Below are positions 4,084-30,630 of a DNA stretch of 34,308 bases, one piece after another. The number at the start of each line of letters is the position of its first letter. Position 1 is the stretch's first letter. Below the pieces are notes generated by a model, which ran no database searches, was not told where the DNA came from, and saw only the letters and a program-made list of their open reading frames with translations. Made by a program: the position numbers and the translations under genes. The stretch comes from Bacillota bacterium (GTDB lineage Bacteria; Bacillota; Limnochordia; DUMW01), in contig DUMW01000062.1 in NCBI GenBank assembly GCA_012839765.1, positions 1 to 34,308 of the forward strand, written 5' to 3'.

Positions 4084-6459
4084 TTAGTGCAAATGGACGA
4101 TGGTGACCCCCAGTCCACCTTCGGTAGGCGGGGCAATGTAATACTCCTTCACATTGCGATGGTTCTTCAAATAGGCGGCAACCTCTTTTCGCAAGGTACC
4201 GGTGCCCTTCCCGTGCACGATCCGCACCGGGGACAATCCCACTAAAACCGCATCATCAAGATACTTGTCCAGGGCGTAGAGGGCCTCATCCACGGTCATC
4301 CCCCGCAGATGCAGTTCTGGGGAGATGGTGCTGCTTTTACTCCGGGCCAGCGTCCCCGCCCGGGAAGGTCCTTGCTGCTTCGGTGGAGTCTCCCTTTGGC
4401 CCTTGGCCGGTGCTAAGTCAGCCAAATCCACCACAACCTTCATGAGACCTACCTGCACCTGGACCTGATCTTGCTTCGGATCGTCCAGAAGGATCCCCTC
4501 CTTGTCAAGGCTTCTAACTAGAACGGGATCACCAGCCCGTAACCGCTCCAGCCACTTCTGGTCCGCTTCTTCCGGGGGTGGGGTCTTCTGCTCCACCTGG
4601 TCAAGCTGTTTTTGGCGTTCTTGGAGCCTGTGCCGGACTTGGCGCGCCATGTCCTCCAATTCTTCTTTATCTTTGACCTTGCGCATTGCACCCAAGAGAT
4701 CCTCGAATTCTTGACGGATCTCCTTCAGCATGTGCTTAGCTTCCCGTCTGGCCTCCCGGATGATCGCTTGCTCATCTTGCTTTAGTTTAGCCAGACGTTC
4801 TTCATAGTCCTGACGAAGCCTCAGATAGGATTGTTCCTCTAATTCTGCCTGTCGGGCCCTCACCCGGGCCTGCCGTTCTTGGGTCTGGATGCTCTCGATC
4901 AGTTTATCCAGGGCAAAGTCCTCTTGGGACCGGAACCGTAGAGCGCTCTGGTAGATCTCCCTACTTAACCCCAGATTCAATGCGATCTGAAAAGCATTAC
5001 TCTTGCCTGGCAAGCCGATCAGCAGCCGATAGGTCGGCTTTAACGTCTCGGTGTTAAACTCCATGGAGGCGTTTTCCATCGCCGGATGATGAAAGGCAAA
5101 GCCCTTCAACTGACTGTAGTGGGTGGTGGCCACCACTAGGCACTCTTCCACCAGATGCTCCAAAAGGGCCATAGCCAGTGCCGCCCCTTCGTCGGGGTCT
5201 GTGCCGGCCCCCAATTCATCCAACAGAACCAGGGAATTGGGGGTAACCTGCTCTAAAATCTGCACAATGTTTCGCATGTGCCCCGAGAACGTCGAAAGGC
5301 TCTGCTCAATACTCTGCTCGTCACCGATATCGGCAAAGACATAATCGAAGACGGGCACCACACTTTGGGGTTCTGCCGGAATGGGCAAACCCGACTGGGC
5401 CATCAGACACAAGAGTCCTAGGGTCTTCAAAACCACCGTCTTTCCTCCGGTGTTGGGGCCCGTAATTACCAAGGCCCGGTAACCCTCCCCGAGATAGATA
5501 TCATTGGGAACCACATCTTTCCCTAAAAGTGGGTGGCGCGCCCTAAGCAAAGTCACCTTGCAGTCATCGGTGATTTGAGGACAGGCCGCATCCAGTTCCA
5601 TGCTGTACCGGGCTTTGGCAAAGGTGAAGTCCAGATGGGCCAAAACCTCTAGGGAAGCCATGGCTAGATCCGCAAAGTCCCCCACTTGCTGGCTCAGTTC
5701 CCGCAGGATCCGCTGGATCTCCCGTTCTTCCTCGCCGGTCAAGCGGCGTAACTCATTGTTTAACCGAACCACCGCCTCGGGCTCGACGAAGACCGTGGCA
5801 CCACTGCTAGATATATCATGGATGATCCCCGGCAGCGCGTCTTTGTGCTCCTGCTTTACCGGCACCACATAGCGTCCCGCCCGCATGGTCACGATGAAAT
5901 CCTGGAGCACCTTCTGGAAGCGTCCGCCATGGACGATCTCATGCAGCCGAGACCTAATCTGATTCTGGACGGTGGCCATTTGGCGGCGGATGGTGCGTAG
6001 GGCAGGACTGGCACTGTCTTTGATGGTGGAGTCCTCGTCAACACATTCCCCGATACGTTCTTCTAAGCGGGTGTTGGGAGTAATCATCTCTCCCCACTGC
6101 ACCAGACACTCAAGCTGGGAGTTTCCTTGGGCCTGAATGAGAAAACGCCGCATCATGCGCATCACTTGCAAGACAGCACGCACATCCAACAGTTCCTCTG
6201 GGGACAGCATCCCCCCCAGATTAGCCCGCCGGAGGGCACTGCGAATGTCCTTTAGGCCGCGCAAAGGAACAGTGCCCCCATATTCCCTAAGCAACTGCAT
6301 GGCCCCATGGGTTTCCGCAAGCAGTCGCAGAATCTCATTTTTGTCTTTGATGGGTCTTAACCCGTGACAAAGCTCCTGACCCAGGGTAGAAACGCAATAT
6401 CCCGCCAGGGCCTCACGGATCTTGGCAAATTCCAATACCTTCAATGAATGTTCGAACAC
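4084..6459 (-). CDS. mutS2: MutS2 family ATPase/endonuclease
   Basis: MutS2 proteins act on branched DNA or on collided and stalled ribosomes rather than in classical mismatch repair. The N-terminal mismatch-recognition domain of MutS is absent, as expected. Residues about 1-320 hold the core/clamp helices. Walker A GPNTGGKT is at 334-341 and Walker B with signature LVLLDELGAGTDPDEG is near 411. A long charged coiled coil runs about 510-640. The C-terminal Smr nuclease domain has LHLRG and the catalytic-type VHGKGTG motif. The length of 791 residues is normal. The start is GTG with a GAAGGGA ribosome site. It is the last gene of the pheS-polX operon but follows a 150-base gap that may hold its own promoter. 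Confidence 0.95.
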   Translation of the reverse strand: MFEHSLKVLEFAKIREALAGYCVSTLGQELCHGLRPIKDKNEILRLLAETHGAMQLLREYGGTVPLRGLKDIRSALRRANLGGMLSPEELLDVRAVLQVMRMMRRFLIQAQGNSQLECLVQWGEMITPNTRLEERIGECVDEDSTIKDSASPALRTIRRQMATVQNQIRSRLHEIVHGGRFQKVLQDFIVTMRAGRYVVPVKQEHKDALPGIIHDISSSGATVFVEPEAVVRLNNELRRLTGEEEREIQRILRELSQQVGDFADLAMASLEVLAHLDFTFAKARYSMELDAACPQITDDCKVTLLRARHPLLGKDVVPNDIYLGEGYRALVITGPNTGGKTVVLKTLGLLCLMAQSGLPIPAEPQSVVPVFDYVFADIGDEQSIEQSLSTFSGHMRNIVQILEQVTPNSLVLLDELGAGTDPDEGAALAMALLEHLVEECLVVATTHYSQLKGFAFHHPAMENASMEFNTETLKPTYRLLIGLPGKSNAFQIALNLGLSREIYQSALRFRSQEDFALDKLIESIQTQERQARVRARQAELEEQSYLRLRQDYEERLAKLKQDEQAIIREARREAKHMLKEIRQEFEDLLGAMRKVKDKEELEDMARQVRHRLQERQKQLDQVEQKTPPPEEADQKWLERLRAGDPVLVRSLDKEGILLDDPKQDQVQVQVGLMKVVVDLADLAPAKGQRETPPKQQGPSRAGTLARSKSSTISPELHLRGMTVDEALYALDKYLDDAVLVGLSPVRIVHGKGTGTLRKEVAAYLKNHRNVKEYYIAPPTEGGLGVTIVHLH

Positions 6460-6611: not shown

Positions 6612-9056
6612 TCACGCATTATGCTTCCCTTTTTGGTAGAAGTGTCCCAGGGTATATTCACCCTGGAAAAGCCCTAAAAGCTCCCCTTCGATCTCTTTCA
6701 GCCCACGGGTATCTGCGGCCAAAGCCTGTCTGTAAAGCTCTACAATGCGCTTGGCCAACGGCAAAGAATGAAGTCGCAAATCTAAGCGGACAAGCTCCAC
6801 CCCCGCTTCCCGCAGGCGGGGGATGGTACGCAAAGCGGCCAATTCCCTGGAGTTGAAAAGATGCATGCGACAAGCACCGTCAGTGCGGATGGGAAATGAA
6901 AGATTCAACCGATCCACCAGACTCCCGGTCCCACTGGCAAGACAGGGCTGACAATCCATCAGCCGCCCCGGACAATACTCGGAGACCATCACCGGCAACC
7001 GTCCCTGGACGATCACTTCCGTGGGCACAGGCCCCTGTCCCAGGGAAGGAAGCTGATTCAAACTAAGCTCACAGGAAAGGCAGACACCGGAAAAGCCCAA
7101 TTCGTACAGCTGAACCAAAGCCAAGGGGTTATAGATATTAAAAGAGAAGTCAGCCCAAAGGGGCGCCCTACCCCGCAAAAGCTGGAAAGTACCGAGATTT
7201 GCCACTAAGAGTCCCGACGGCAAATGGGGAGCGTCCCCCACGATGGCGGCAATATCCCCAAGCTCCCGATCCTTTGTAATTCGCGGAAAGGCCCAAAACA
7301 ATTCACAAGAGGACCCTTCGACCCGTTCCAACGCCTGCCAATAAATCTCCCCCGGCAGAACAGCACTGCCTCCCCGCCCCTTGGTGAAGGCTTCACCGCC
7401 AAAATAGATCCGGTCGGCACCCGCGGCAATCAAAGGTTCGATGAACTCCAGTTTGTTCACCAAGACCCCCAGCCGCAAAGGAGCAGGGGGATTCTTTTGT
7501 GGTGGCAGTGAAAAGGCTAAGTCTGTAGTTCCCCTTAGGGGGGGCCGCCTGAACTGTTCCGCCCGTAAGGCCATCAGCCGCTCAAAGGCTGCCCGCCGCA
7601 CCTGTTTCAGTTCCCCGAAGGGCAAGATGGGCTCCCCGTCAATCTTGACAGAACTCTCCACAACTTGGAAAGGAACATCCCCCAATTGCAGTAGCTTTTC
7701 CAACAGGACCTCTTCCGTCAAAGGGTGGTTCTTGGCCGCTTCCGCCACCAGAGAAGTCCTTTCCTGGACCCGGTTACCTTCCCCATCTTCCAACACCAAG
7801 GTCAAAGGCTGTCCCACCGCCACCGTCGCGTGCATCTTCACTGGTACCCGCCGCAAACATCGGGGCGATGTATAGCTTTGTACTGCCGCTGGATCCGTAA
7901 CTAACTTATAAACCTCGTCCCCCACCTTAACCCGGCCCGAATGCCGCCAATGGACCACCTGTCCCGCTGCCGCCTTCGGAAGGGACCTTTTCCCCTCTTT
8001 CAGATCCCGCACTATACTCTGCTGGAAACGATGTTTGGACCAGAATTGGACCTGTTCCCCCTCTTCTAGCTCCCGGGCCAGACGCACCCAGACCCGGTTC
8101 GGGGCCACTTGCACCACCTCACCCTGGTAAACCCCCCGGTTTCCCGGATACAAGGGATTCACCACTTCCTTACCCCGTCGTCCCCCCAGGTATCCCGAGG
8201 TGAAACCTCGGGTGAAGGCGGCCTCCAGCCAATCCCGCTCCTGTTGCAGTGCTTTGAAACCTACCGGATCCGTCAAGGCCCGATCTAACGCCGCCCGGTA
8301 GACCCGGGTCACGGTGGCCACATATTCGGGAGCTTTCATCCTCCCTTCGATCTTCAAAGCGGCCACCTTACTGGTCACGATGTCCCCCAACAGGTCCAAA
8401 AGACACAGATCCCGCATGCTAAGGAGATAACCAGACAGGTTTTGGCCCGGCGCCACCAGCCGATAGCGCAATCGGCAAGGTTGGGCGCACTCGCCACGGT
8501 TACCGCTGCGTCCACCCAACAGGGAACTAAACAAGCATTGTCCGGAGTAGGCCACACAAAGGGCACCATGTAAAAAGATCTCCAGTTCCAGAGAACTGAC
8601 GGAGCCCAATGTGCGCACTTCTTCCAGGGACAACTCCCGGGCCAGGACCACCCGGCTTAGGCCTAATTCCTCCAGGACTTGGAGATCGTGACGATTATGA
8701 ATCGTCATCTGGGTACTGCCATGGAGGGGGATGGTGGTCAGTTCCCGGGCCAGTCGTACCACAGCCAGATCCTGGATAATCAAGGCATCCACGCCGATCC
8801 TATGGAGGAACTGGAGGTACTGGGCCAACTCCTCCAGCTCCTCTTCCCGGATCAAGGTGTTCACCGTCACGTACAGCTTGACCCCCCGGATATGGCAATA
8901 ATCTACGGCCTCTATCAACTGGGCTCGGTCGAAATTCACCGCATTGGCCCGGGCACTGAAGGCTTTGCCCCCGAGGTAGACACTATCGGCACCGTTTTCC
9001 ACCGCGGCCTTCAAGGCCTCCATACTTCCCGCGGGGGCCAGCAACTCCACCATCAA
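6612..9056 (-). CDS. U32 family protein with DUF3656 domain (RlhA/YdcP-like)
   Basis: U32 proteins, once called peptidases, include tRNA and rRNA hydroxylation enzymes (TrhP, RlhA) and UbiU/UbiV, several of which bind an Fe-S cluster through conserved cysteines. Here the N-terminal TIM-barrel half begins LLAPAGSMEALKAAVENGAD. The family signature follows with Cys167, Cys174, Cys190 and Cys194 (GECAQPCRLRY) and Cys218. The roughly 800-residue form with a middle DUF3656-like region and a second U32-like half matches the RlhA (23S rRNA C2501 hydroxylation) branch, so rRNA modification is the best guess, not proven. AGGAGG precedes tandem ATG codons; the first is used. It sits 18 bases downstream of the NIF3 gene, in the polX operon. 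Confidence 0.85.
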   Translation of the reverse strand: MMVELLAPAGSMEALKAAVENGADSVYLGGKAFSARANAVNFDRAQLIEAVDYCHIRGVKLYVTVNTLIREEELEELAQYLQFLHRIGVDALIIQDLAVVRLARELTTIPLHGSTQMTIHNRHDLQVLEELGLSRVVLARELSLEEVRTLGSVSSLELEIFLHGALCVAYSGQCLFSSLLGGRSGNRGECAQPCRLRYRLVAPGQNLSGYLLSMRDLCLLDLLGDIVTSKVAALKIEGRMKAPEYVATVTRVYRAALDRALTDPVGFKALQQERDWLEAAFTRGFTSGYLGGRRGKEVVNPLYPGNRGVYQGEVVQVAPNRVWVRLARELEEGEQVQFWSKHRFQQSIVRDLKEGKRSLPKAAAGQVVHWRHSGRVKVGDEVYKLVTDPAAVQSYTSPRCLRRVPVKMHATVAVGQPLTLVLEDGEGNRVQERTSLVAEAAKNHPLTEEVLLEKLLQLGDVPFQVVESSVKIDGEPILPFGELKQVRRAAFERLMALRAEQFRRPPLRGTTDLAFSLPPQKNPPAPLRLGVLVNKLEFIEPLIAAGADRIYFGGEAFTKGRGGSAVLPGEIYWQALERVEGSSCELFWAFPRITKDRELGDIAAIVGDAPHLPSGLLVANLGTFQLLRGRAPLWADFSFNIYNPLALVQLYELGFSGVCLSCELSLNQLPSLGQGPVPTEVIVQGRLPVMVSEYCPGRLMDCQPCLASGTGSLVDRLNLSFPIRTDGACRMHLFNSRELAALRTIPRLREAGVELVRLDLRLHSLPLAKRIVELYRQALAADTRGLKEIEGELLGLFQGEYTLGHFYQKGKHNA

Positions 9057-9074: not shown

Positions 9075-10025
9075 TCACTTCTTTCGGGAATACCGTAGAA
9101 AACCTGAGCAGGGGATAATCTCCAAATCCGGCATCTTGTCCAACAACAGATTCATCCCCAGGGAGTCGCTGGCGATATGCCCGGCGATCACCACATTGAT
9201 CTGGGCCTTCTTAGCCTCTTCCAGATTAGCTTCCGAAATGTGCATACAAACCATAGTCCCTACTCCGGCATCGGCGTATTTAGCAAACATGTCTTTGGAA
9301 CCGCCAGTGCCGCCAGTCATATCCACAAAAACCTTGCCCGCCCGGCGCTTCTTGTCTCCGGCCACTACTTTCAAACCGGCCTCATCCCGCTTAGCCTGCT
9401 GATACTCCGGCTCCTCAAGCAAAACCTCCAGAACATCTTCCACGCGGTAGGGCTGAGCTTGATCGAACTTCTGCTGCAGATAGGTGGTAACGTGGTTATC
9501 CGCGGGGGTGTGGATACACATCATAGCCAGATCTAAAAGCCGAGCCACGTCCCGGGCCCGCTGGTGGTTGGTGGGTAATACCGAACGTTCCACCTGGTCG
9601 ATCCGTTCCTTAAGGAGCCCCTCCGCCACATTGATGGGCACCCCTAGCATGGCGGCCAACTCCTCGTGCATATGCATTACCTGGTAAAGACGGGCTAAAG
9701 CCGTGCCCTCCGGATGATGGGCCAACACAAGATCAACGGGACGGCCCTTTTCCCTGAGCCGATCCGCCAAAAGGACCTCGCCCACCTCCATATCGATCCC
9801 CACCAGCACCGTGCGGATCTCCCGCTCCTCATCGCCGTTGAGGATCCGGGTATCGGCATAGGGGTTGGTCAACCGCTCCTGGTCGAAGTACTTCTTCTCT
9901 TCCTCCGACATCTTTTCAAAGTCTTCCCGGATGCGTCGCAACTCCGCCTCTACGGTCTGGCGACCCCGGGGATCCATCTTGATTCCTTCTTCCACGGCAA
10001 AACGATACATTTCACCAAGTTTCAT
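9075..10025 (-). CDS. NIF3/DUF34-like metal-binding protein
   Basis: The C-terminal half matches the NIF3 fold, with a family-like segment HISEANLEEAKKAQINVVIAGH ending in a histidine followed by ASDSLG. An earlier LAHHPEG motif corresponds to the paired His metal ligands. Members are widespread, bind two metals and have no settled function; involvement in metal or cofactor chemistry is proposed. This 316-residue version has a charged helical N-terminal extension of about 70 residues (MDPRGRQTVEAELRRI), resembling a clostridial subfamily. AAGGAGGG stands 8 bases before the ATG. It is placed between polX and the U32 gene, 27 bases after polX. I cannot assign a reaction. Confidence 0.75.
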   Translation of the reverse strand: MKLGEMYRFAVEEGIKMDPRGRQTVEAELRRIREDFEKMSEEEKKYFDQERLTNPYADTRILNGDEEREIRTVLVGIDMEVGEVLLADRLREKGRPVDLVLAHHPEGTALARLYQVMHMHEELAAMLGVPINVAEGLLKERIDQVERSVLPTNHQRARDVARLLDLAMMCIHTPADNHVTTYLQQKFDQAQPYRVEDVLEVLLEEPEYQQAKRDEAGLKVVAGDKKRRAGKVFVDMTGGTGGSKDMFAKYADAGVGTMVCMHISEANLEEAKKAQINVVIAGHIASDSLGMNLLLDKMPDLEIIPCSGFLRYSRKK

Positions 10026-10052: not shown

Positions 10053-11768
10053 TTATTCCTTGCGCAAAAAGGCCCGGAGTTGCTCCAAGGGCCAGCAATT
10101 CACCACATCGACACAGGAAAGGCCCGCGCGGCGAGCCACCCACAACCCATAGGTCAAATACCCCAATTGTACCGGGGCGTGGGCATCGCTATTGATGGCG
10201 AACTTCACCCCCAGCCTAAGCCCCTCTCGGACATGGGTTTCATCCAAGTCAAGCCGTTCGGGATGGCTGTTGATCTCTAGTACCGTACCGGTGCGAGCTG
10301 CAGCCTGCAGCACTTCCTCTACGTCCACCTCATAGCCGGACCTACGCCCCAACAAACGTCCGGTTACATGACCGATAATATCCACATGGGGGTTTTCCAT
10401 GGCGCGAAGGATCCTTCGGGTCATCTCTTTCCGATTGAGGTTGAAGTGCTGGTGGACACTAGCCACCACCAGATCTAGCTCGCCAAGGACTTCATCGGGC
10501 AAATCCAGGGTACCGTCGGGTAGGATATCCACCTCGATACCGGCCAGCACGGTGAAACCATCTAGCTCCCCGTTGACTTGAGCGATCTCCTGCCGTTGCT
10601 GCCGAAGCTGCTGGGGTGTAAGGCCACGGGCAATCTTCAGAGACTGGGAATGATCACACACCGCCAGATAGGAAAGCCCCGCCGCTTTAGCAGCCAAAGC
10701 CATCTCCTTGATACTGACGGTACCATCACTGTAGTGGGAATGAAGGTGCAAATCTCCTTGGAGATCGCCACGTTCGACAAGATGCGGCAATTCTCCCGCC
10801 AAAGCTTGGGCCACTTCTTCCCGCCCTTCGCGCAGTTCCGGGGGAATCCACGGTAGGCCAAGACTGTGGTAAATGTCCGCCTCCACAGTAATTGGCCGCG
10901 TTTCGCCCGCGGCAAAGGCAATGCTCTTGCCATCGGGAAAGGAGATTCCCCGTTGCGCCGCCACTTGGGCCACCTGGGCCAGATGACCGGGGCTTCCAGA
11001 AGTCTCATACCAACGGAAGGGAAACTGCTCCGGTGGGACAACCTGGATTTGAGCGACCAAGCCTTGGGCCTGTAGGTGGATTGTACCGCCATCCCGTTGG
11101 GGGGCACCGTCCAAAGAAGGGTAGTCCTCAATTTCCTCCCAAAAGCCCGAAGGGTCCTCGGCGGCCACCAACAACTCCACCCGGGTAAGCAAAGGCCGTC
11201 GCCGTCGCAGGGCCCCCGTGGGCTCAACCCGGGATACACCGGGAATCCGGCGGCAAAAGTCCCCCAGATGTCGTTCTAAGAGCACCGCGACCGCCAGCAA
11301 CACCCGCCCCCGGTGTTGCAGATGGTACTCCACCCCCCTTTGGATCCGAGCCACTGCCTGGGGACCGAGCTTGGGAACCTGCCTGATCGTACCCTCCCGC
11401 AGGTGTCGGGCTAGATCGTCGAGGGAGGTGACCCCCAAGGTCTCATGCAATTGCCGGGCGGTCTTCACCCCGATCCCTGGAATTCGGGCCAGTTCCAGGA
11501 GAACAGGAGGAAACTGGGATTTCAACTCTTCCTGTTCCCGGATGCTTCCTGTGCGCAACCATTCATCGATCTTAGCTGCAATACCGGCACCCACGCCAGG
11601 AATCTGACGGAGGGCGTTATTGGCGTGCAAGAGCCGAACATCTTCTGGTAAATTCTGAATGCTTTTTGCCGCCCGGCGATAGGCCCTGGTTTTGAACGCC
11701 TCTACACCGGTCAGTTCCAACAGCAACGCTAGCTCTTCCAACAACAAAGCTAACTGAATATTCTCCAC
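10053..11768 (-). CDS. polX: PolX-type protein: degenerate polymerase domain plus intact PHP phosphoesterase
   Basis: Bacterial PolX joins a family X DNA polymerase to a PHP 3'-5' exonuclease for base-excision repair. The N-terminal helix-hairpin-helix units (IPGVGAGIA, IPGIGVKTA) are present. The palm motif is GALRRRR (residues 185-191) where GSxRR is usual, and the catalytic DxD is replaced by RVE (196-198). The third Asp is Gln at about 240 in VAQIQVVPPE. Nucleotide transfer is therefore unlikely. The PHP domain is complete: DLHLHSHYSDG, CDHS, SVHQHF, GHVTGR and NSDAH. The frame extends to a TTG at 11786, but AAGGGGAG lies inside that extension and is well placed for the GTG at 11768, giving 571 residues. 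It follows cvpA by about 30 bases. Confidence 0.9.
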   Translation of the reverse strand: MENIQLALLLEELALLLELTGVEAFKTRAYRRAAKSIQNLPEDVRLLHANNALRQIPGVGAGIAAKIDEWLRTGSIREQEELKSQFPPVLLELARIPGIGVKTARQLHETLGVTSLDDLARHLREGTIRQVPKLGPQAVARIQRGVEYHLQHRGRVLLAVAVLLERHLGDFCRRIPGVSRVEPTGALRRRRPLLTRVELLVAAEDPSGFWEEIEDYPSLDGAPQRDGGTIHLQAQGLVAQIQVVPPEQFPFRWYETSGSPGHLAQVAQVAAQRGISFPDGKSIAFAAGETRPITVEADIYHSLGLPWIPPELREGREEVAQALAGELPHLVERGDLQGDLHLHSHYSDGTVSIKEMALAAKAAGLSYLAVCDHSQSLKIARGLTPQQLRQQRQEIAQVNGELDGFTVLAGIEVDILPDGTLDLPDEVLGELDLVVASVHQHFNLNRKEMTRRILRAMENPHVDIIGHVTGRLLGRRSGYEVDVEEVLQAAARTGTVLEINSHPERLDLDETHVREGLRLGVKFAINSDAHAPVQLGYLTYGLWVARRAGLSCVDVVNCWPLEQLRAFLRKE

Positions 11769-11796
11769 AAAGGTACTCCCCTTCAACTCGCCACCC

Positions 11797-12285
11797 TCAA
11801 CCCAGTAACCTGTTCACCACCCCAAACATGCGGGGCAACAGGGTAAAGATCTGGTACGCTACCCCCGATGTCTCCACTACCTCTCCTAGTTTCGCCAAGG
11901 TATGCAGATTTGAACCAAAGATAACGGCCATGAAACTGCCGGCGAGGATGAAGGCACAAAGAAGCCCGAACAACGCACCAAAGAGCCGATCACAGAGCCC
12001 GAAACGGGCCTGTTGCACCGAGCTTTGCATCCACCGGGCCAAAAGGCCCACACCGACGGTAACACCCACACTGACCAACAAGAAGGCACCGGCTCCCGTT
12101 AGGGCCTGGGGAACATTTAGGTACAGGGAGAGGGTCGCACCCCACCGTTCGTAGGTCATAAAGGCCAAAAGCAGGCCCAAGATCGGACCACCGATCTTAC
12201 CGAACTGTAGGACAAAACCCTCAGAAAAGCCCCGATACCCCAGGGCCAAAAAAAAGCCAATGATCAGTAGATCTAGCCAGCTCAT
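11797..12285 (-). CDS. cvpA: CvpA family membrane protein
   Basis: A 162-residue integral membrane protein of the CvpA/colicin V production family. It opens with MSWLDLLIIGFFLALGYRGF, the typical start with a Gly-rich first helix, and has about four hydrophobic segments (about 4-22, 31-47, 64-84, 103-128). The family is known from colicin V export and envelope phenotypes, but its molecular role is not settled. Its ATG overlaps the zapA stop (ATGA), so the two are translationally coupled. The order zapA-cvpA-polX-mutS2 is conserved in Bacillota. Confidence 0.85.
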   Translation of the reverse strand: MSWLDLLIIGFFLALGYRGFSEGFVLQFGKIGGPILGLLLAFMTYERWGATLSLYLNVPQALTGAGAFLLVSVGVTVGVGLLARWMQSSVQQARFGLCDRLFGALFGLLCAFILAGSFMAVIFGSNLHTLAKLGEVVETSGVAYQIFTLLPRMFGVVNRLLG

Positions 12286-12569
12286 CGAGCTTCCTCCAGC
12301 AGCCTCAACAGCTCCTCGTTGTCCTTCCGGGCCTGATACAATTCGCCGGCCAAATTCAAAGCCACCAGGACTGCCACCCTATGGATAGGCAGTCCCTGGT
12401 ATTTCTCCTGAAGCCCCCTCATCCGCCGATCCACATCCGCGGCCAGGTCCCGGATGCACCCTGCGGGGACCGCACCCTTGATAGTGTAGGTATCACCACA
12501 AATCTCTACTTTTTCCGTAGTCACAGTCTGTTCCGCATCGTTGACGGGTCCTTGGTCCTTGACGGTCAC
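12282..12569 (-). CDS. zapA: Cell division protein ZapA
   Basis: ZapA binds and cross-links FtsZ filaments at the division ring. The 95-residue protein shows VEICGDTYTIKG, the family's opening beta hairpin, then IRDLAADVDRRMRGLQEKY and a C-terminal helix likely to form the coiled-coil tetramer. The start is GTG with GGGGGGTGA about 9 bases upstream. It follows pheT by 24 bases and overlaps cvpA by four bases. The first 14 residues are less conserved and might be slightly shorter in reality. Confidence 0.85.
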   Translation of the reverse strand: MTVKDQGPVNDAEQTVTTEKVEICGDTYTIKGAVPAGCIRDLAADVDRRMRGLQEKYQGLPIHRVAVLVALNLAGELYQARKDNEELLRLLEEAR

Positions 12570-12593: not shown

Positions 12594-15008
12594 CTACTGT
12601 CGCAGAGTTACCCCCAACTGCTCCAGTCGTTCCTGGATCTTCTTCTCGATCTCTACAATCTCTTCATCAACCAGGGTCCGATCCTCCGCCTGATAGGTCA
12701 CCCCATAGGCCAGACTGCGGTAGCCTGCGGGGATCTGCTTGCCGGTATACACGTCAAACAATTGAACCTCTTTCACCAAGGAGCCGCCCACCTCTTTGAT
12801 CACCTGGACCACTTGATCCGCCGCCAGATCATTAGGGACCAGGAAGGCCAAATCCCTCTTTACGAAGGGGTAACGGGCAATGCCCACGTAGGAAATGGTA
12901 TCGTCGCAATGGGCGATCAAGGCCTCCAGATCGAATTCCGCCACATAGACCGGCCGCTCCAGGTCGAATTCTGCCGCACACTGGGGATGCACTTGTCCAA
13001 AATGGCCGATACATTCATCCCCGGCCAGGATGGCGCTGCGTCGTCCCGGATGCAGGAAGGGACACTGGCTGGGTCCGAAGGTGATTCCCTTTGCCCCCAG
13101 TCGTTCCAGGATGAGTTCCATGATCCCTTTCAGATCAAAGAAATCTACCTCGCTGGGCACCTGTCCCCACGTGGTGCCCGGACGCAGGCCACTCAACAGC
13201 ACCGCACCCATCTCCCGTTCCACGGGCAACTTACCGCTGGCCACTGGCCAGAAGACCCGCCCCAATTCGTATAGATATACGTTTTCCGCCTGGCGGGCAA
13301 AGTTCCTTTGGGCCGTATTCAAAAGGCCCGGCACAAGACTGGTTCGCATCACACTCTGGTCTTCACTCAAAGGGTTAGCAATGGTGAGCACGTTGTGTAG
13401 ATCCCGCCCAAATACTTGCAAGTCGTCTCCTAACTTCGCCAAGTCCCCCGGACTAATGAAGCTATAGGTCAGGACCTCGTAAAGACCGCAACCGGTGAGA
13501 ATTTCCCGCAGCTGGTCCTGCTTAACAAGGATCTGGGTCTGTCCGGCAAAAACCGTCTCCGTGACAGGGAGGGTGGTGGCAATCTGATCATACCCGTACA
13601 GGCGGGCTACTTCCTCAATAATATCCGCCTCGATCCCCAGATCCCGTCGGTGGCTGGGCACCTGGACAATCAAGTGCTCACCATCATACTCCACCCCGAA
13701 CTCCAGCCGCTGGAGCATGTTTACCATTTCCTCGGTTGCAATGGCTGTACCCAGGACCTTGTTCACCACCGCCGGCCGCACATGGATGGTCTTCGGTTGC
13801 TCCTCCACGTTATTGACGTCGATCATGCCCGCCACCACCGTGGCTCCGGCCAGCTCCTGCATCAACTGACAGGCCCGCTCTAGGGCATAAACCGTACCCT
13901 CGGGAGGAAGTCCCTTTTCAAAACGGGCGGCCGCCTCACTGTGCAGACCCAAGCGCCGTCCCGTGCGCCGGATACTAGCTCCCTTGAAGTTGGCAGACTC
14001 CAGCAGGATATTCCTGGTCTCCTCGGTTACCTCCACGTGGGCCCCACCCATCAATCCCGCGATACAGGCGGGGGCCTTAGCATCCGCGATCACCAGGTCC
14101 TCTTCGGTCAACTTCCGGGTTACATCGTCTAGGGTGACCATCTCTTCTCCCGGAGCCGCCCGCCGGACCACCAGTCTCTGTTCGGCCAGTCTGTCGTAGT
14201 CGAAGGCATGGAGGGGCTGACCGGTCTCCAGCATCACAAAGTTAGTAATATCCACAATATTGTTAATGGGCCGCATCCCCGCCGCCCGAAGATACTGCTG
14301 CATCCACAAAGGCGAAGGACCAATCTTCACGTTCCGCACCAGCCGGGCACAGTACCGCGGGCAAAGATCCGGTGCCTGCACTTCCACGCTGGTGCATTGT
14401 TCGATGGCCTCAGCGGACTCCTGGAAAACAGGCTCCGGCAACTTCACTTCCTTACCCAGCATCGCGGCCACTTCCCGAGCCACGCCGATCACGCTCAAAA
14501 GGTCGGGTCGGTTAGCGTAAATATCGATTTCAATGGCCACATCGTCCAGATGCAGGACCTCTTCGATGCTGGTACCGGGCACACAGGTCTCCGGTAGTTC
14601 AATGATCCCTTCGTGCGCATCGTCAATCCCCAATTCCCTGGAGGAACAGAGCATACCGGCCGAGGCTTCCCCCCGAATCACTGCTTCCTTGATCTCTAAT
14701 CCTCCTGGCAAATGGGCGCCGGGCAAGGCAATGGCCGTCAGCATCCCTTCCCGCACGTTGGGAGCACCACAGACCACCCGCCGCACATCCCCAGGGCCCA
14801 CTTCCACCTGACAAAGGGTCAACCGATCCGCCTTGGGATGGGGATTCACTGTCAGGACCTTCCCCACCACCACTTTACCCTGGAAGTCCGTGCCCATGGG
14901 CTCCATCCGGTCCACCGTAACGCCGCTCATGGTGAGTCTTGCGGCCAACTGGTCCACCGGCAAATCCACGTCCACATATTCTTTAATCCATCGATAAGAT
15001 AACCGCAA
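12594..15008 (-). CDS. pheT: Phenylalanyl-tRNA synthetase beta subunit
   Basis: The large subunit of the (alpha-beta)2 PheRS. It holds an N-terminal tRNA-binding (EMAP-like) domain around residues 40-150 (VVVGKVLTVNPHPKADRLTLCQV), the B3/B4 editing domain, B5, the catalytic-like core and a C-terminal FDX-ACB anticodon-binding domain (ISYVGIARYPFVKRDLAFLV). The 804-residue length is standard. The start appears to be TTG with GGGGTGA just upstream; the next residues, RLSYRWIKEYVDVDLP, are the usual N-terminus. It lies 32 bases after pheS, in one operon. Confidence 0.96.
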   Translation of the reverse strand: MRLSYRWIKEYVDVDLPVDQLAARLTMSGVTVDRMEPMGTDFQGKVVVGKVLTVNPHPKADRLTLCQVEVGPGDVRRVVCGAPNVREGMLTAIALPGAHLPGGLEIKEAVIRGEASAGMLCSSRELGIDDAHEGIIELPETCVPGTSIEEVLHLDDVAIEIDIYANRPDLLSVIGVAREVAAMLGKEVKLPEPVFQESAEAIEQCTSVEVQAPDLCPRYCARLVRNVKIGPSPLWMQQYLRAAGMRPINNIVDITNFVMLETGQPLHAFDYDRLAEQRLVVRRAAPGEEMVTLDDVTRKLTEEDLVIADAKAPACIAGLMGGAHVEVTEETRNILLESANFKGASIRRTGRRLGLHSEAAARFEKGLPPEGTVYALERACQLMQELAGATVVAGMIDVNNVEEQPKTIHVRPAVVNKVLGTAIATEEMVNMLQRLEFGVEYDGEHLIVQVPSHRRDLGIEADIIEEVARLYGYDQIATTLPVTETVFAGQTQILVKQDQLREILTGCGLYEVLTYSFISPGDLAKLGDDLQVFGRDLHNVLTIANPLSEDQSVMRTSLVPGLLNTAQRNFARQAENVYLYELGRVFWPVASGKLPVEREMGAVLLSGLRPGTTWGQVPSEVDFFDLKGIMELILERLGAKGITFGPSQCPFLHPGRRSAILAGDECIGHFGQVHPQCAAEFDLERPVYVAEFDLEALIAHCDDTISYVGIARYPFVKRDLAFLVPNDLAADQVVQVIKEVGGSLVKEVQLFDVYTGKQIPAGYRSLAYGVTYQAEDRTLVDEEIVEIEKKIQERLEQLGVTLRQ

Positions 15009-15040
15009 CTTTGTTCACCCCAAATCTTTACCGGCACCAG

Positions 15041-16057
15041 CTAAAACTGGTTCAGGAACCGCAAGTCGTTTTCGAAGAACAACCGAATATCATCGATCTG
15101 ATAGCTGAGCATGGCCAGTCGCTCCACCCCCATGCCAAAGGCAAACCCGGTGACCTGATCCGGGTCGTAGTTCACTTGTCGCAACACACTGGGATGGACC
15201 ATGCCACAACCCAATACCTCCAGCCAGCCCGTATTCTTACAGACCCGGCAGCCCTCCCCCTTACAGATAACACAGCCGATGTCCACTTCGGCACTAGGCT
15301 CCGTAAAGGGAAAGTAACTAGGCCGGAACCGTACAGGGGTATCCGGGCCGAAGAACTGCGTGATAAAGGCCGCTAGGGTCCCCTTCAGATCCCCGAAGGT
15401 GATATCTTCCGCCACCGCCAGCCCCTCCACCTGGTGAAACATCGGTGAATGGGTAACGTCCGAATCGCACCGGTACACCTTGCCCGGTGCGATGATACGA
15501 ATTGGTGGCTGTTTCTGCTCCATCACCCGGATCTGTACCGGCGAAGTCTGGGTTCTAAGTAGGACTTCCCCTTCGATATAAAAGGTGTCCTGCATGTCCC
15601 GGGCCGGATGGTCCTTGGGCACATTTAAAGCCTCGAAGTTGTAGTAGTCCAGTTCCACCTCGGGGCCCTGGACCACTTCGAACCCTAAGCCAATGAAGAT
15701 CCGCTTAATCCTTTCTAGGGTCTGGGTCAAAGGATGCTTAGTACCGAAGGCCGGACGCCGGCCGGGCATGGTGATATCCACCTTTTCTTCCATCAGCCGT
15801 CGTTGGGTCTCCCTCTCGGCCAATTTCTCCCCCCACTGGGCCAGCACCTTTTCCAGTTCTTCCCGGGCCTGGTTCACCAGTTGACCCATCCTAGGCCGCT
15901 CTGCCGGATCCAATTGGCCAATGCTGCGCAATAAAGAGGTGAGGACGCCCTTCTTACCTATGTATTTCACCCGGAGCTCCTCCAACTCCCGTAGGGTCGT
16001 GGCTCCACGGATTTCCTGTGCGCCCTCTTCGACGATGGTTCTAATCTTGTCCTCCAC
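15041..16057 (-). CDS. pheS: Phenylalanyl-tRNA synthetase alpha subunit
   Basis: The catalytic class II subunit of PheRS, 338 residues. An N-terminal coiled-coil domain (about 1-85) for tRNA-Phe is followed by motif 2 (VYRCDSDVTHSPMFHQVEG) and motif 3 (FGMGVERLAML). The segment GCVICKGEGCRVCKNTGW carries four cysteines that could bind zinc, as in some PheS proteins. The start is GTG with GGGAGG 9 bases upstream, directly after the leader terminator. It is the first large gene of the operon running to mutS2. Confidence 0.96.
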   Translation of the reverse strand: MEDKIRTIVEEGAQEIRGATTLRELEELRVKYIGKKGVLTSLLRSIGQLDPAERPRMGQLVNQAREELEKVLAQWGEKLAERETQRRLMEEKVDITMPGRRPAFGTKHPLTQTLERIKRIFIGLGFEVVQGPEVELDYYNFEALNVPKDHPARDMQDTFYIEGEVLLRTQTSPVQIRVMEQKQPPIRIIAPGKVYRCDSDVTHSPMFHQVEGLAVAEDITFGDLKGTLAAFITQFFGPDTPVRFRPSYFPFTEPSAEVDIGCVICKGEGCRVCKNTGWLEVLGCGMVHPSVLRQVNYDPDQVTGFAFGMGVERLAMLSYQIDDIRLFFENDLRFLNQF

Positions 16058-22479: not shown

Positions 22480-23301
22480 TCAGCGACAGAGGGGACAACC
22501 GGGACAATACCGGATCCGCTGCCGAAACACCTCATCGATGGTCCCCAACAAAGGATCAGGGGGAAGATGCAAGATAATACTTACCGGAGCAAGGGTCACC
22601 AAAGCACTGAGCAGTAAGTCTTCACCGCTTACCCCACCACTGCCCGGCTCCAAAGACAGGCCGTGAAGAAGCCGCGCGTCCACGGGCCTGAAATGCTGAT
22701 CCACCAGGGAATAACCACCAAGGTTCCTGCGCATAACCTGGACCGTATCGATCCGGGGTTCTTGCACCTCCACGAAAAATTTCAAGAGTTTTACAAACTC
22801 CTCATGTTCTTTTTGTTCCTGGAAATTGCCCACCGCAAGATCGACACAATCCACCAGTTCCTCCCAGTAGTCCCGCAACCGGAACCGCACAAAACCGTCC
22901 ACGTGCACATAGGCGTGATGCTGTAGGTATTCCAACAGGGCGAAGAGAATCTGTGTCCTCCGCCGGGGGTTATAGGCTAACCTTTGGGCCTCGGCACAGA
23001 TGTTGCCTTCCTCCACCCGGTCAAAGCCCGTGTAATGACACCGAAGGATCCGCCGGATGTATTCCACCTGCAGGATTTCCGTGATAATATCGGCAATGGT
23101 TTCCGCCAACTGATAGCGGCAGATTTCCACCACCCCGTGGGTATGTAAATGACAGGAATAGAAGACCAGCTGGCCCAACTTATGTTCCCCGATGTCCATG
23201 CGGATCCCTTCGCTGCACAACAGATCCCGAAACAGGTGGAAACGCTGTTGAACGCGGGGAAATGCTTTGCTTGTCCCGACCTTGGCAAGTTCCACGCGCA
23301 T
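22480..23301 (-). CDS. ytxC: Putative sporulation protein YtxC
   Basis: A 273-residue soluble protein matching the YtxC family, which in B. subtilis also lies beside thrS. No enzyme motif is visible. The middle is typical of the family: FLRDYWEELVDCVD-type segments (FVRFRLRDYWEELVDCVDLA) and a TILHLPP-like core seen here as SIILHLPPDPLL. The end CPGCPLC has three cysteines that might bind a metal. On the minus strand upstream, TCATA-N18-TATACTA (about 23324-23353) is a loose match to a forespore sigma-G promoter, and TTGTAC overlaps it. The role in sporulation is by family name only. Confidence 0.8.
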   Translation of the reverse strand: MRVELAKVGTSKAFPRVQQRFHLFRDLLCSEGIRMDIGEHKLGQLVFYSCHLHTHGVVEICRYQLAETIADIITEILQVEYIRRILRCHYTGFDRVEEGNICAEAQRLAYNPRRRTQILFALLEYLQHHAYVHVDGFVRFRLRDYWEELVDCVDLAVGNFQEQKEHEEFVKLLKFFVEVQEPRIDTVQVMRRNLGGYSLVDQHFRPVDARLLHGLSLEPGSGGVSGEDLLLSALVTLAPVSIILHLPPDPLLGTIDEVFRQRIRYCPGCPLCR

Positions 23302-27029: not shown

Positions 27030-27109
27030 AACACACAACTACACCGTTAATGGCGTTTTGCTCCAGATATCTCCCGTTGTCTTCGTCTAACATCGATATT
27101 CATACCATT

Positions 27110-27138
27110 GTATGAAAGACTTTGCGCCGGTAATACTA
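27110..27138 (+). promoter_or_regulatory. Sigma-G-like promoter of the ku operon
   Basis: GTATG (27110-27114), 17 bases, AATACTA (27132-27138). The forespore sigma-G consensus known from B. subtilis is GHATR at -35 and CATNMTA at -10; only the first -10 base differs. The same arrangement with the same spacing precedes the spore-protein gene at 30740. The start of transcription would be near 27145, just before the ku ribosome site. Confidence 0.6.
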
Positions 27139-27164
27139 CTAAAGATCCAAAAGGGGGTATGACC

Positions 27165-27947
27165 ATGCGCAGTCTTTGGAAAGGGGCCATTAGCTTTGGT
27201 TTGGTGAATATCCCCGTACAGATGTATGCGGCCACCGAAGAGAAATCCGTAAAATTCCGGCAGCTGCACCAAGTGTGTAACACACCGTTGCAGTACCAGA
27301 AGTCCTGTCCCCACTGCCAAAGGGAGGTGCCTGCTGAGGAGATCATCCGGGGCTACGAGTATGCACCGGGGCAGTTCGTGGTACTCACCGAGGCCGACCT
27401 GGATAATCTCCCAGGTGAAGCCACGAAGACCATCGATATCATCGACTTCGTCAACTTGCAGGAAATCGACCCGGTATATTACCACAAGACCTATTATTTG
27501 GCACCCCAACCCACGGGACAGAAGGCCTACGCCCTGCTGCGGCTTGCCATGACGGAAACCAACCGTATCGCCATTGCCAAGGTGGTACTACGGGCCAAAC
27601 AATCCCTCTGTGCCATCCGGGTGCAGAATAGCGCCCTGGTCTTGGAGACCATGTTTTTCCCCGATGAAATCCGTCCCCTAGATCAACTGGAAATCCCCAG
27701 GGAAGTCGCCCTGAACCCGAAAGAAGTGGACATGGCCATCAGTCTCATTGGCAGCCTTACGGACACCTTTGCGCCGGAAAAATACACCGATGATTACCGG
27801 ATAGCCCTCCTGCGTCTCATTGAACAAAAGATCGCCGGCCAAGAAGTCCACCAGGCGCCGGCGGCCCAGGACTCGGCGGAAGTGCTGGATCTGCTGAAAG
27901 CCCTAGAGGAAAGCCTGAAGGTGGTCCAAGCCACCCATGGGAGCTGA
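27165..27947 (+). CDS. ku: Ku, DNA end-binding protein of bacterial end joining
   Basis: Bacterial Ku forms a homodimeric ring on double-strand ends and recruits the ligase and polymerase. The 260-residue protein starts MRSLWKGAISFGLVNIPVQMY, the universal Ku start, and has a Ku core with the CPHC zinc-like pair (residues about 48-51), GYEY and DFV-LQEIDPVYY. The C-terminal tail is short. AAGGGGG lies 7 bases before ATG 27165; an ATG two codons earlier is too close to it. It leads a rightward group with the ligase (8 bases later) and polymerase genes. A sigma-G-like promoter suggests forespore expression, as known for ku-ligD in B. subtilis. Confidence 0.95.
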   Translation: MRSLWKGAISFGLVNIPVQMYAATEEKSVKFRQLHQVCNTPLQYQKSCPHCQREVPAEEIIRGYEYAPGQFVVLTEADLDNLPGEATKTIDIIDFVNLQEIDPVYYHKTYYLAPQPTGQKAYALLRLAMTETNRIAIAKVVLRAKQSLCAIRVQNSALVLETMFFPDEIRPLDQLEIPREVALNPKEVDMAISLIGSLTDTFAPEKYTDDYRIALLRLIEQKIAGQEVHQAPAAQDSAEVLDLLKALEESLKVVQATHGS

Positions 27948-27955
27948 GCGTACAG

Positions 27956-28924
27956 GTGAGCGATTCCCTTCCCACCGTAGTGAAACCCATGCTGGCCCAA
28001 AGCAGCCCACCCTTTGACTCTCCAGAGTATCTTTTTGAACCCAAGTGGGATGGAATCCGTTGTCTCCTCTTTGCCCAGGGGGCAACCAAATTACAAAGTC
28101 GCAACCTACGGGATCTTACCCCGCTGTTTCCAGAGCTTGCCCAGTTGCACACCCACTTGGAGGCCCAAGGGACCATCCTCGATGGGGAATTGGTAGTGAT
28201 TCAGGAGGGAAAAGCTCAATTTGCCGGAATTCAAAAACGACTAACTCCGCGCCGGCCTGGGGTCATCGACGCGCTAAGTCACAGCTTGCCGGCCACCTAC
28301 GTAGCCTTCGATCTTCTGTACTACGAAGGACGTCCCCTACTACAAGAACCTCTGTATCGGCGAAAGGAGTACCTAGCAAAGCTCTTTCAGCCCGGTCCTT
28401 CGCTTATTGCCTCACCATACGTGTTTTCCAACGGCATTCAGCTCCACGAAGCTTGCAAGGCCCAAGCCTTCGAAGGCTCGGTGGCCAAACTGTTAAAAAG
28501 TCCCTACCTGCCGGGCCAACGAAGTCGTTTTTGGTTGAAAACCCGCATCGAGCAAGAAGTGGACTGTGTAATCCTGGGGTACACCAAGCAGGAAAACCAA
28601 CACTCCATCGGAGCCTTGCTCTTGGGAGTAGCCACCCCCGCGGGTTTCCGCTACATTGGTAGTGTGGGCACGGGTTTTGATCAACAAGTACGTCAGACCC
28701 TCTTCACTGTCCTCGGTAACCTCGAAAGGGATACGCCGCCGGCCCCGGTACCACAGGCAATAGGTACCGGAGCCCACTGGGTTCACCCAGTGCTAGTCTG
28801 CGCCGTGCGCTACTTGGAGGTTACCCCCCAGGGTTTTTTACGCCATCCTGTCTTCGTGGGCCTGCGCCAAGACAAAGGACCAAAGGAATGTCTGGAGGCA
28901 CAACTATGGACCGTAAACAAGTGA
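27956..28924 (+). CDS. ligD: ATP-dependent DNA ligase, stand-alone LigD-type ligase domain
   Basis: It seals nicks in the end-joining pathway with Ku. The nucleotidyltransferase domain has motif I EPKWDGIR with the adenylated Lys30, motif III DGELVV, motif IIIa YVAFDLLYYEG and motif IV EGSVAK (173-178). Motif V reads WLKTR (193-197) where WLKxK is usual: the last Lys is Arg197. An OB-fold domain follows (EVDCVILGYTKQEN to the end). At 322 residues it is only the ligase module of LigD; polymerase and phosphoesterase modules are not fused. The start is GTG with GGGAG about 12 bases upstream. It overlaps the polymerase gene by 19 bases. Confidence 0.92.
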   Translation: MSDSLPTVVKPMLAQSSPPFDSPEYLFEPKWDGIRCLLFAQGATKLQSRNLRDLTPLFPELAQLHTHLEAQGTILDGELVVIQEGKAQFAGIQKRLTPRRPGVIDALSHSLPATYVAFDLLYYEGRPLLQEPLYRRKEYLAKLFQPGPSLIASPYVFSNGIQLHEACKAQAFEGSVAKLLKSPYLPGQRSRFWLKTRIEQEVDCVILGYTKQENQHSIGALLLGVATPAGFRYIGSVGTGFDQQVRQTLFTVLGNLERDTPPAPVPQAIGTGAHWVHPVLVCAVRYLEVTPQGFLRHPVFVGLRQDKGPKECLEAQLWTVNK

Positions 28925-29817
28925 CCGTCTTGGGAGACCGAGAACTGATCCTCACTAACCTCACCAAAGTCCTCTGGCCCGACGCTGGTCTCACCAAAGC
29001 CCATTTGGTACAGTACTATACCCGCGTTGCCCCTTACCTGTTGCCCCACTTAGCTCGCCGCCCCCTCACGGTAATCCGCTACCCCCAGGGGATCAGTGAA
29101 AAGGGGTTTTATCAGAAACAATGCCCGCCGTATGCTCCCCAATGGATCAAAAGATATCCTGTTGCGTCCCAGCACGGTATCACCGAATACATCCTTGCAA
29201 AGGAGCCGGCCACCTTGGCCTGGTTGGCCAACCAGGGGGCCATCGAAATCCATCCCTGGCTTTCCACCATCGAACATCCGGATCATCCCAACCAGATCGT
29301 AATTGACCTGGATCCGGCGCCGGGCTGCAGCTGGTCCGATGTAGTACTGGTGGCCAAATTGGTTAGAAAGCTACTGGAACAGCTGGATTTGGTAGGGTTT
29401 GTAAAGACGTCGGGTGCTACTGGTCTGCACATCTGTATCGGCATTCCTCCTAAGTACGATTTTCAAGTAACCAGTAGCTTTGTAGCTTATATTGGACAGC
29501 TTTTGGAACGGACCATCCCGGAAAAGGTCACCACCGAGCGACTGGTCCGTAAGCGCGCCGGACGGGTCTATGTGGACCATTTGCAAAATCTGCCGGGCAA
29601 GACCATCGTGGCACCCTACAGTGTACGGGCTCGATCCCAGGCACCGGTATCTACACCGCTTCTGTGGGAGGAGCTGGATGCGATCACACCGGATCAGTTC
29701 ACCATCACCAATCTATTCAGCCGCCTAGAACAACACGGTGACCTCTTGGCCCCGTTGTTGAACCACCCGCAATCCATCGATCACGTCCTCCCTCTATTCC
29801 GGCATTTGCTTGCATAG
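28906..29817 (+). CDS. ligD: LigD-type polymerase/primase domain protein (stand-alone)
   Basis: An archaeo-eukaryotic primase-type polymerase that fills ends before ligation and tends to insert ribonucleotides. The 303-residue protein has LTNLTKVLWPDAGLTKAHLV at the N-terminus and catalytic IDLDPAPG with Asp134 and Asp136. SGATGLHICIGI with His175 follows, then RAGRVYVDHLQN with the third Asp224 and GKTIVAPYSVR. All three metal-binding acids are present, so activity is likely. GGAGG stands 7 bases before ATG 28906; the frame itself extends slightly upstream. It overlaps the ligase gene and so is translated with it. The 3'-phosphoesterase module of some LigD proteins is not found in this window. 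Confidence 0.92.
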   Translation: MDRKQVTVLGDRELILTNLTKVLWPDAGLTKAHLVQYYTRVAPYLLPHLARRPLTVIRYPQGISEKGFYQKQCPPYAPQWIKRYPVASQHGITEYILAKEPATLAWLANQGAIEIHPWLSTIEHPDHPNQIVIDLDPAPGCSWSDVVLVAKLVRKLLEQLDLVGFVKTSGATGLHICIGIPPKYDFQVTSSFVAYIGQLLERTIPEKVTTERLVRKRAGRVYVDHLQNLPGKTIVAPYSVRARSQAPVSTPLLWEELDAITPDQFTITNLFSRLEQHGDLLAPLLNHPQSIDHVLPLFRHLLA

Positions 29818-29853
29818 TATAATTAAATGAGCTTACCCAAAGGAAGTGAAGAT

Positions 29854-30630
29854 ATGTTCTACATTGGCACCTCCGGGTATAGTTATCGGGATTGGGTAGG
29901 CCCGGTCTATCCGCCGGGTACCAAGAACGAAGCGATGTTGGAGCTTTACGCACAACTGTTTTCCTTTACAGAGCTGAATTTCACCTACTATCGGATGCCC
30001 CAGAAGCACATTTTGGCCCGCATGGCCACCCGGACCCCCAAGGATTTCCTATTCACCGTCAAAGCCCACAGCTCCATGACCCATTCCAGAGACTTCACCC
30101 CTGAGGACCTAACCGGTTTCCTCGATGCCCTGGATCCCCTGGCCAGGGAAGGCAAACTGGCGGGGATTCTCCTCCAGTTTCCCTACAGCTTCCATCCCAC
30201 ACCAGAAAACCGGGAATACCTAGTCAGGCTGCGTACAGGGTTCGGGTATCAGTGGCCGCTGTTCGTGGAATTCCGGAATGTGAAGTGGTTACAACAGGAA
30301 GTCTTCGATTTGTTGAAAGAACAACAGCTGGGCTTCGTCTGTGTCGATCAACCGCGCATCAAGGGTCTGATGCAGGCTTTAGCCGTAGCCACCACCCGTC
30401 TGGGTTACGTGCGCTTCCATGGGCGCAACCAAGAAAAATGGTACCACCACGAAGCAGCCCACCAGCGGTACGACTATTTCTACAGCGTGGAGGAACTGGC
30501 CGAATGGCTGCCCAAGCTCCGACGCCTCAAGGATCACACCGACGCGGTCTTCATCAGTATGAACAACCACTACCAGGGCAAGGCAGTGCAGAACGCTAAA
30601 ATGCTACAGCAGCTATTGGAGCTGGCCTGA
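29854..30630 (+). CDS. DUF72 (YecE-like) TIM-barrel protein
   Basis: DUF72 proteins have a TIM-barrel fold and no established reaction. The 258-residue protein starts MFYIGTSGYSYRDWVGPVYP, has LNFTYYRMP, the typical FTVKAHSSMTH strand, LLQFPYSFH, VEFRN and YVRFHGRN, all family hallmarks. AGGAAG lies 7 bases before ATG 29854; the frame extends nine codons upstream without a ribosome site. A TATAAT at 29818 may mark a separate promoter, but its -35 is poor. It directly follows the polymerase gene (36 bases), which hints at, but does not prove, a part in DNA repair. Confidence 0.88.
   Translation: MFYIGTSGYSYRDWVGPVYPPGTKNEAMLELYAQLFSFTELNFTYYRMPQKHILARMATRTPKDFLFTVKAHSSMTHSRDFTPEDLTGFLDALDPLAREGKLAGILLQFPYSFHPTPENREYLVRLRTGFGYQWPLFVEFRNVKWLQQEVFDLLKEQQLGFVCVDQPRIKGLMQALAVATTRLGYVRFHGRNQEKWYHHEAAHQRYDYFYSVEELAEWLPKLRRLKDHTDAVFISMNNHYQGKAVQNAKMLQQLLELA

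Follow-up and report, generated by a model that had tools for sequence, protein, structure and literature searches.

A PolX protein with an altered polymerase site and a complete PHP site in the native operon of a Limnochordia genome

Known forms of PolX and how the locus compares

PolX proteins that combine an altered polymerase site with a complete PHP site have already been published as noncanonical PolX, and they made up 27.5% of the set analyzed by Prostova et al. 2022 (PMC9226535). Two Deinococcus members, with the triads AEE (D. radiodurans, PDB 2W9M) and ARE (D. gobiensis, all three Asp replaced), showed no polymerase activity and a strong Mn-dependent 3'-5' exonuclease, and the D203A variant of B. 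subtilis PolX lost its polymerase activity and kept the exonuclease (PMC9226535). Earlier work had reported activity for the AEE enzyme; it was not reproduced by Prostova et al., and contamination of the older preparation was suggested (PMC9226535). Most noncanonical proteins fall in one main monophyletic cluster, with separate small groups described, some of them in Firmicutes, and the noncanonical forms probably arose several times; deletions in the palm and fingers are common among them, but not required (PMC9226535). In Firmicutes, altered PolX goes together with a nuclease-free NHEJ system in 11 of 12 genomes, and PolX may supply the missing nuclease; in Bacilli and Clostridia ZapA and MutS2 are neighbours of both PolX kinds (PMC9226535). 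A 2026 survey found the PHP site to be better conserved than the polymerase site (PMC12926913). Our literature search found no paper treating PolX together with Limnochordia.

We analyzed the polX gene of a stretch of 34,308 nucleotides (contig DUMW01000062.1, the window) from a Limnochordia genome. Like noncanonical PolX (PMC9226535), its product has an altered triad and degraded fingers, with the Asn replaced by a hydrophobic residue and the Lys lost, keeps the HHHEHHEDH PHP site and the HhH domains, and belongs to a genome whose NHEJ genes lack the LigD nuclease. Unlike many of those proteins, it shows no truncation of palm or fingers and sits in the ancestral Firmicutes operon, with neighbours of the kind reported for PolX of Bacilli and Clostridia. 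Its origin is probably separate from that of the Deinococcus/Bacteroidetes/Alphaproteobacteria cluster. With canonical PolX (T. thermophilus 3AU2/3AU6, B. subtilis YshC) it shares the domain order and the fold, but neither of the two canonical motifs, D-x-D ... D and the fingers sequence (Y/H)FTGSKxHN. Judging from its residues, it would also resemble the PolX-like PHP proteins of Actinobacteria (PMC12926913) in keeping a PolX-type PHP nuclease without polymerase function; those proteins, however, have no polymerase region, whereas here palm and fingers are retained; the model shows them folded, and in relatives they are under constraint. What is new in our data is how often the site was lost in place within a single class, together with a differing order of decay.

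State of the polymerase and PHP sites

The 577-residue protein matched the NCBIfam PolX profile NF006375 with 429.4 bits, 3.4 bits above the cut-off of 426. As this match exceeds the curated cut-off, automatic annotation would call the protein a polymerase; database annotation will accordingly name it PolX DNA polymerase, which is very probably wrong. It is the only full PolX copy in the 2.56 Mb genome. A second copy was ruled out, the other matches being stand-alone PHP proteins only. Pfam models gave the order N-terminal HhH_8, HhH_5, palm, fingers (the Pfam 'thumb' model) and PHP, with the N-terminal 8 kDa domain retained (HHH_8, 77 bits). The palm stretch comprises 95 residues, close to the 96 of Thermus and longer than the 84 of D. 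radiodurans, and the alignment revealed no deletion in palm or fingers. The coordinates of all features are collected in Table 1.

Table 1. Features of the window, in order of position
Feature	Position	Strand	Basis or remark
mutS2, end of the conserved polX operon	4084..6459	minus	reading of sequence; gene order
U32-type peptidase gene	6612..9056	minus	reading of sequence; gene order
Gene with weak DUF34/NIF3 match, directly downstream of polX	9075..10025	minus	0.2 bits under cut-off
polX	10053..11786	minus	577 aa, TTG start, open ORF; noncanonical, altered triad REQ
PHP domain, residues 344-572	10071..10757	minus	Pfam PHP; nine ligands intact
Fingers dNTP motif WYETSGSPGHL (canonical LHHFTGSKEHN)	10980..11012	minus	alignment
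Palm domain, residues 162-252, full length but degenerate	11031..11303	minus	conserved columns 3/8; confident model fold
Gln-246 replacing the third catalytic Asp	11049..11051	minus	codons and alignment
RVE, triad positions 1 and 2, replacing DxD	11175..11183	minus	codons (R202 11181-11183, E204 11175-11177) and alignment
GALRR (G191-R195), GSxRR motif without Ser	11202..11216	minus	alignment
N-terminal HhH_8 (8 kDa) domain and second HhH, residues about 8-155	11322..11765	minus	Pfam HHH_8, HHH_5
cvpA-like gene (Colicin V production)	11797..12285	minus	operon neighbour, conserved order
zapA	12282..12569	minus	operon neighbour, conserved order
pheT and pheS	12594..16057	minus	same operon, upstream; conserved order
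YtxC-like gene	22480..23301	minus	Pfam PF08812, 155 bits
NHEJ stretch, from Ku to a DUF72 gene	27108..30630	plus	
Ku	27108..27947	plus	TIGR02772, 319 bits
LigD-type ATP-dependent ligase, separate gene, without nuclease (PE) domain	27956..28924	plus	TIGR02779
LigD-type polymerase, separate gene, IDLDP and RVYVD acids present	28888..29817	plus	TIGR02778; sequence

Codon positions and alignment agree with the first-pass annotation on its reading of RVE after GALRRRR and of a Gln in place of the third Asp. When 62 to 108 relatives, Thermus 3AU2 and Deinococcus 2W9M are aligned with the protein, R202, E204 and Q246 fall on the three metal-ligand columns, at which 95-100% of the 37 canonical sequences in the tree set carry Asp. 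The claim that all three polymerase aspartates are lost is literally correct (R, E and Q), but the Glu at position 2 is still acidic; by the definition of Prostova et al., in which Asp or Glu counts as a triad acid, two of the three acids are gone. The GSxRR site reads GALRRRR, with the Gly and both Arg kept and the Ser lost. In the fingers, TSGSPGHL stands in place of FTGSKxHN: the steric gate is lost, Lys has become Pro and Asn has become Leu, while the GS and His-268 are kept. The PHP motifs had been described as complete, and they are, with all nine ligands of the HHHEHHEDH set in the alignment (H347, H349, H379, E418, H445, H473, E504, D534 and H536). Of the columns in which canonical PolX is conserved to 90% or more, the protein retains 54 of 56 in the PHP domain and 13 of 15 in the N-terminal HhH region, against 9 of 12 in the fingers and only 3 of 8 in the palm. 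Because nearly all PHP and most HhH columns are kept while most palm columns are lost, chance or error is an implausible source of the altered triad. The ratio of palm to PHP divergence was 1.60 against canonical relatives, compared with 1.30 for canonical pairs. The Pfam palm model was dropped as a test of decay, being too weak to inform even for canonical relatives.

One could argue that the protein is still a weak or specialised nucleotidyltransferase, binding metal through Glu-204 and other acids. E204 is indeed kept, triad position 2 is acidic in 91% of the altered copies, GxxRR and His-268 are invariant, the palm is full length and confident in the model, and there is the older activity report for the AEE Deinococcus enzyme discussed in PMC9226535. 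Nevertheless, Arg has replaced the acid at position 1 and Gln the one at position 3, and the search for replacement acids elsewhere in the palm found no acidic column specifically gained and conserved in the altered copies. We also rejected E188 as a compensating acid: its column holds an acid in 74% of altered copies against 38% of canonical ones, and canonical Thermus PolX likewise has Glu there. Moreover, the dNTP site lacks its steric gate, its Lys and its Asn, the AEE activity was not reproduced and the ARE enzyme is inactive too (PMC9226535), which makes residual nucleotidyl transfer very unlikely. The acid at position 2, the invariant GxxRR and the full-length palm still leave a small chance of a nucleotide- or metal-linked role for the palm.

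We therefore favour, with high confidence, a noncanonical bacterial PolX in which the HhH domains and the palm form a DNA-binding scaffold for an active PHP nuclease, and which is no longer a polymerase, its site having decayed in place. The proposal that the protein is not a polymerase and is most likely a nuclease processing 3' ends fits both the anatomy of the sites and the published activity of the similar Deinococcus proteins (PMC9226535).

Repeated loss of the polymerase site in the class

We searched 73 genomes of the class, mostly draft assemblies, and obtained a PolX match at the strict limit in 41 of them; 31 of the 73 lack PolX. Triads were readable in 41 PolX copies: DDD in 17, EDE in one and an altered set in 23. 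Besides the REQ of the window, the altered triads comprise SDN (three copies), KEE, KDE, GEE and QEE in family f6, RTE, QEE in family f4, and EEQ, HEL, IER, KEV, QEI, QEH, KEE and VCE. Wherever the PHP site of an altered relative could be read, its ligands are complete (HHHEHHEDH). We scored the EDE copy as canonical since all three residues are acidic, although it may be inactive, as its fingers motif (LWQTTGSKRHV) is altered too. Regarding the question of whether the loss is clade-wide, the answer is mixed: more than half of the readable copies are altered, and the losses are many and separate.

A single clade of all altered PolX was rejected (p-AU 2.9e-47). With palm and fingers columns left out, the PolX tree required 10 changes between canonical and altered states, six of them forced by well-supported branches, and a tree from PheS, PheT and MutS2, all encoded in the operon, forced six changes as well. 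These trees indicate that the polymerase site has been lost repeatedly within the class, with at least six forced changes of state. As the first-pass annotation had held, polX sits in its standard operon: the gene of the window and most altered copies have the native order pheS-pheT-zapA-cvpA-polX-mutS2, the same as the canonical copies, and from this position it follows that the site decayed in place. Five altered copies lie off the operon, in G057, G019, G068, G013 and as a second copy in G054. The last genome has a native canonical PolX (L179, DDD) next to this off-operon altered one (L180, VCE). The PolX proteins of G057 (L175), G019 (L176) and G068 (L177) group with the Deinococcus and rhizobial noncanonical cluster, and they likely entered genomes without a native copy by horizontal transfer.

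The same origin could be proposed for the polX of the window, that is, acquisition from the main Deinococcus/Bacteroidetes/rhizobial noncanonical cluster with the same function. Such transfers into the class are likely for the three genomes just named, and a grouping of the protein with Deinococcus, rhizobial and these three off-operon members was not rejected (p-AU 0.68); the same held for a placement with the f6 lineage (p 0.22), the long branch of the protein giving both tests low power. Against a transfer, the gene lies in the native operon, unlike those of G057, G019 and G068, and its palm is full length, compared with the deletions common in the main cluster. In addition, a DUF34/NIF3-like gene at the position downstream of polX is found only here and in G001 and G006, which carry the SDN lineage, and on the operon-protein tree the genome of the window and this lineage are sisters with 89% support. 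Altogether we regard a transfer as unlikely and decay within the native operon as the better account. This sister relationship makes a loss in common with the SDN lineage possible. On the PolX tree alone, an independent loss, one shared with that lineage and one shared with the main Deinococcus cluster are not separated, as the branch of the protein is long, and its own family is represented by one genome.

The copies also differ in which part of the site changed. L030 (G046) and L031 (G025), both of family f4, have an intact DDD triad and a fingers motif, TGPAAHV, without the dNTP-binding residues; their close relatives G003 and G037 have the triad QEE. The SDN lineage (L005, L006 and L008) is the reverse, with FTGSxxHN retained and the acids lost. 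As read from these sequences, the order of decay differs between lineages, with the fingers going first in G046 and G025 and the acids first in the SDN lineage. The class thus offers related pairs of intact and lost sites, such as G002 (DDD) with G007 (RTE) and G046 (DDD) with G003 (QEE), which allow asking about the purpose of synthesis by PolX, the reasons for its frequent loss and the role of a retained dead palm.

The retained palm and the repair surroundings

The AlphaFold model of the protein has a mean pLDDT of 94.6, with means of 84-97 for the palm blocks, and its nearest solved structure by TM-score is Thermus PolX with DNA (3au6, TM 0.87/0.90). Across the 23 altered and 37 canonical sequences, G191, R194, R195, H268 and E302 are invariant where present, while the first and third triad positions, S192, G232 and R273 vary freely among the altered ones. 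In altered relatives, dN/dS was about 0.12-0.23 for the palm and about 0.05-0.12 for the PHP domain, so that the palm evolves at roughly twice the PHP value and is far from neutral. These values come from relatives, the protein itself having none close enough, and the pair G003/G037 is so close that it offers too few changes for a judgement.

A functionless gene on its way to loss would account for the fast divergence of palm and fingers and for the many class genomes without PolX. However, the frame of 577 codons is open and in its operon, nearly all conserved PHP columns are kept, every altered relative with a readable site has all nine PHP ligands, and the dN/dS values of the altered relatives are low. 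We consider a decaying gene very unlikely. The low dN/dS of the relatives, the folded model and the invariant GxxRR and His instead suggest that palm and fingers persist as a non-catalytic module, folded and binding DNA or phosphate. A tentative extension, to which we give somewhat less than even chances, is that after repeated in-place loss in the class the dead palm and fingers were retained to serve the PHP nuclease as a module dedicated to end binding, with GxxRR and His-268 as its signature. If so, 3'-end processing would be the selected core function of bacterial PolX and DNA synthesis a dispensable extra.

Under our preferred reading of a nuclease on a scaffold, the HhH domains and the catalytically dead palm and fingers would most likely bind a gap or the end of a break. 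The PHP site, presumably Mn-dependent, would then trim or clean the 3' end by 3'-5' exonuclease action, possibly also by incision at AP sites or removal of 3' blocks, and Pol I or Ku and LigD-type enzymes with a ligase could finish the repair. The polymerase site would have decayed within the ancestral pheST-zapA-cvpA-polX-mutS2 operon, in one of several separate losses in the class. We infer the absence of polymerase activity, the nuclease activity, the substrate and the pathway from this arrangement of sites and genes.

The genome encodes Pol I and Nfo, and no Xth-type AP endonuclease matched over the cut-off. Hence gap filling need not fall to LigD, and PolX is not obviously the sole AP endonuclease. 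The NHEJ stretch of the window holds Ku, the LigD-type ligase and the LigD-type polymerase, followed by the DUF72 gene. The separate LigD-type polymerase with all its acids noted in the first-pass annotation was recovered by its profile match, with the acids readable in the sequence and the gene beside Ku and the ligase. The further suggestion that this enzyme could take over gap filling did not hold as a specific role, since ordinary Pol I is encoded and Ku is not tied to the state of PolX: it occurs in 20 of 23 genomes with altered PolX, 12 of 17 with canonical PolX and 26 of 31 without PolX (p = 0.25 and 0.76). With no significant difference among these groups, we rejected a specific link of Ku/LigD to altered PolX; compensation by LigD is not specific, as relatives with intact PolX carry Ku and LigD just as commonly. 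No LigD_PE nuclease domain scored over the cut-off in this genome or anywhere in the class, and a domain absent throughout cannot separate the PolX states. Given that Ku is common whatever the PolX state, the class data neither confirm nor exclude the link between altered PolX and nuclease-free NHEJ.

Finally, the window contains a YtxC-like gene, a family known from spore-forming Bacilli.
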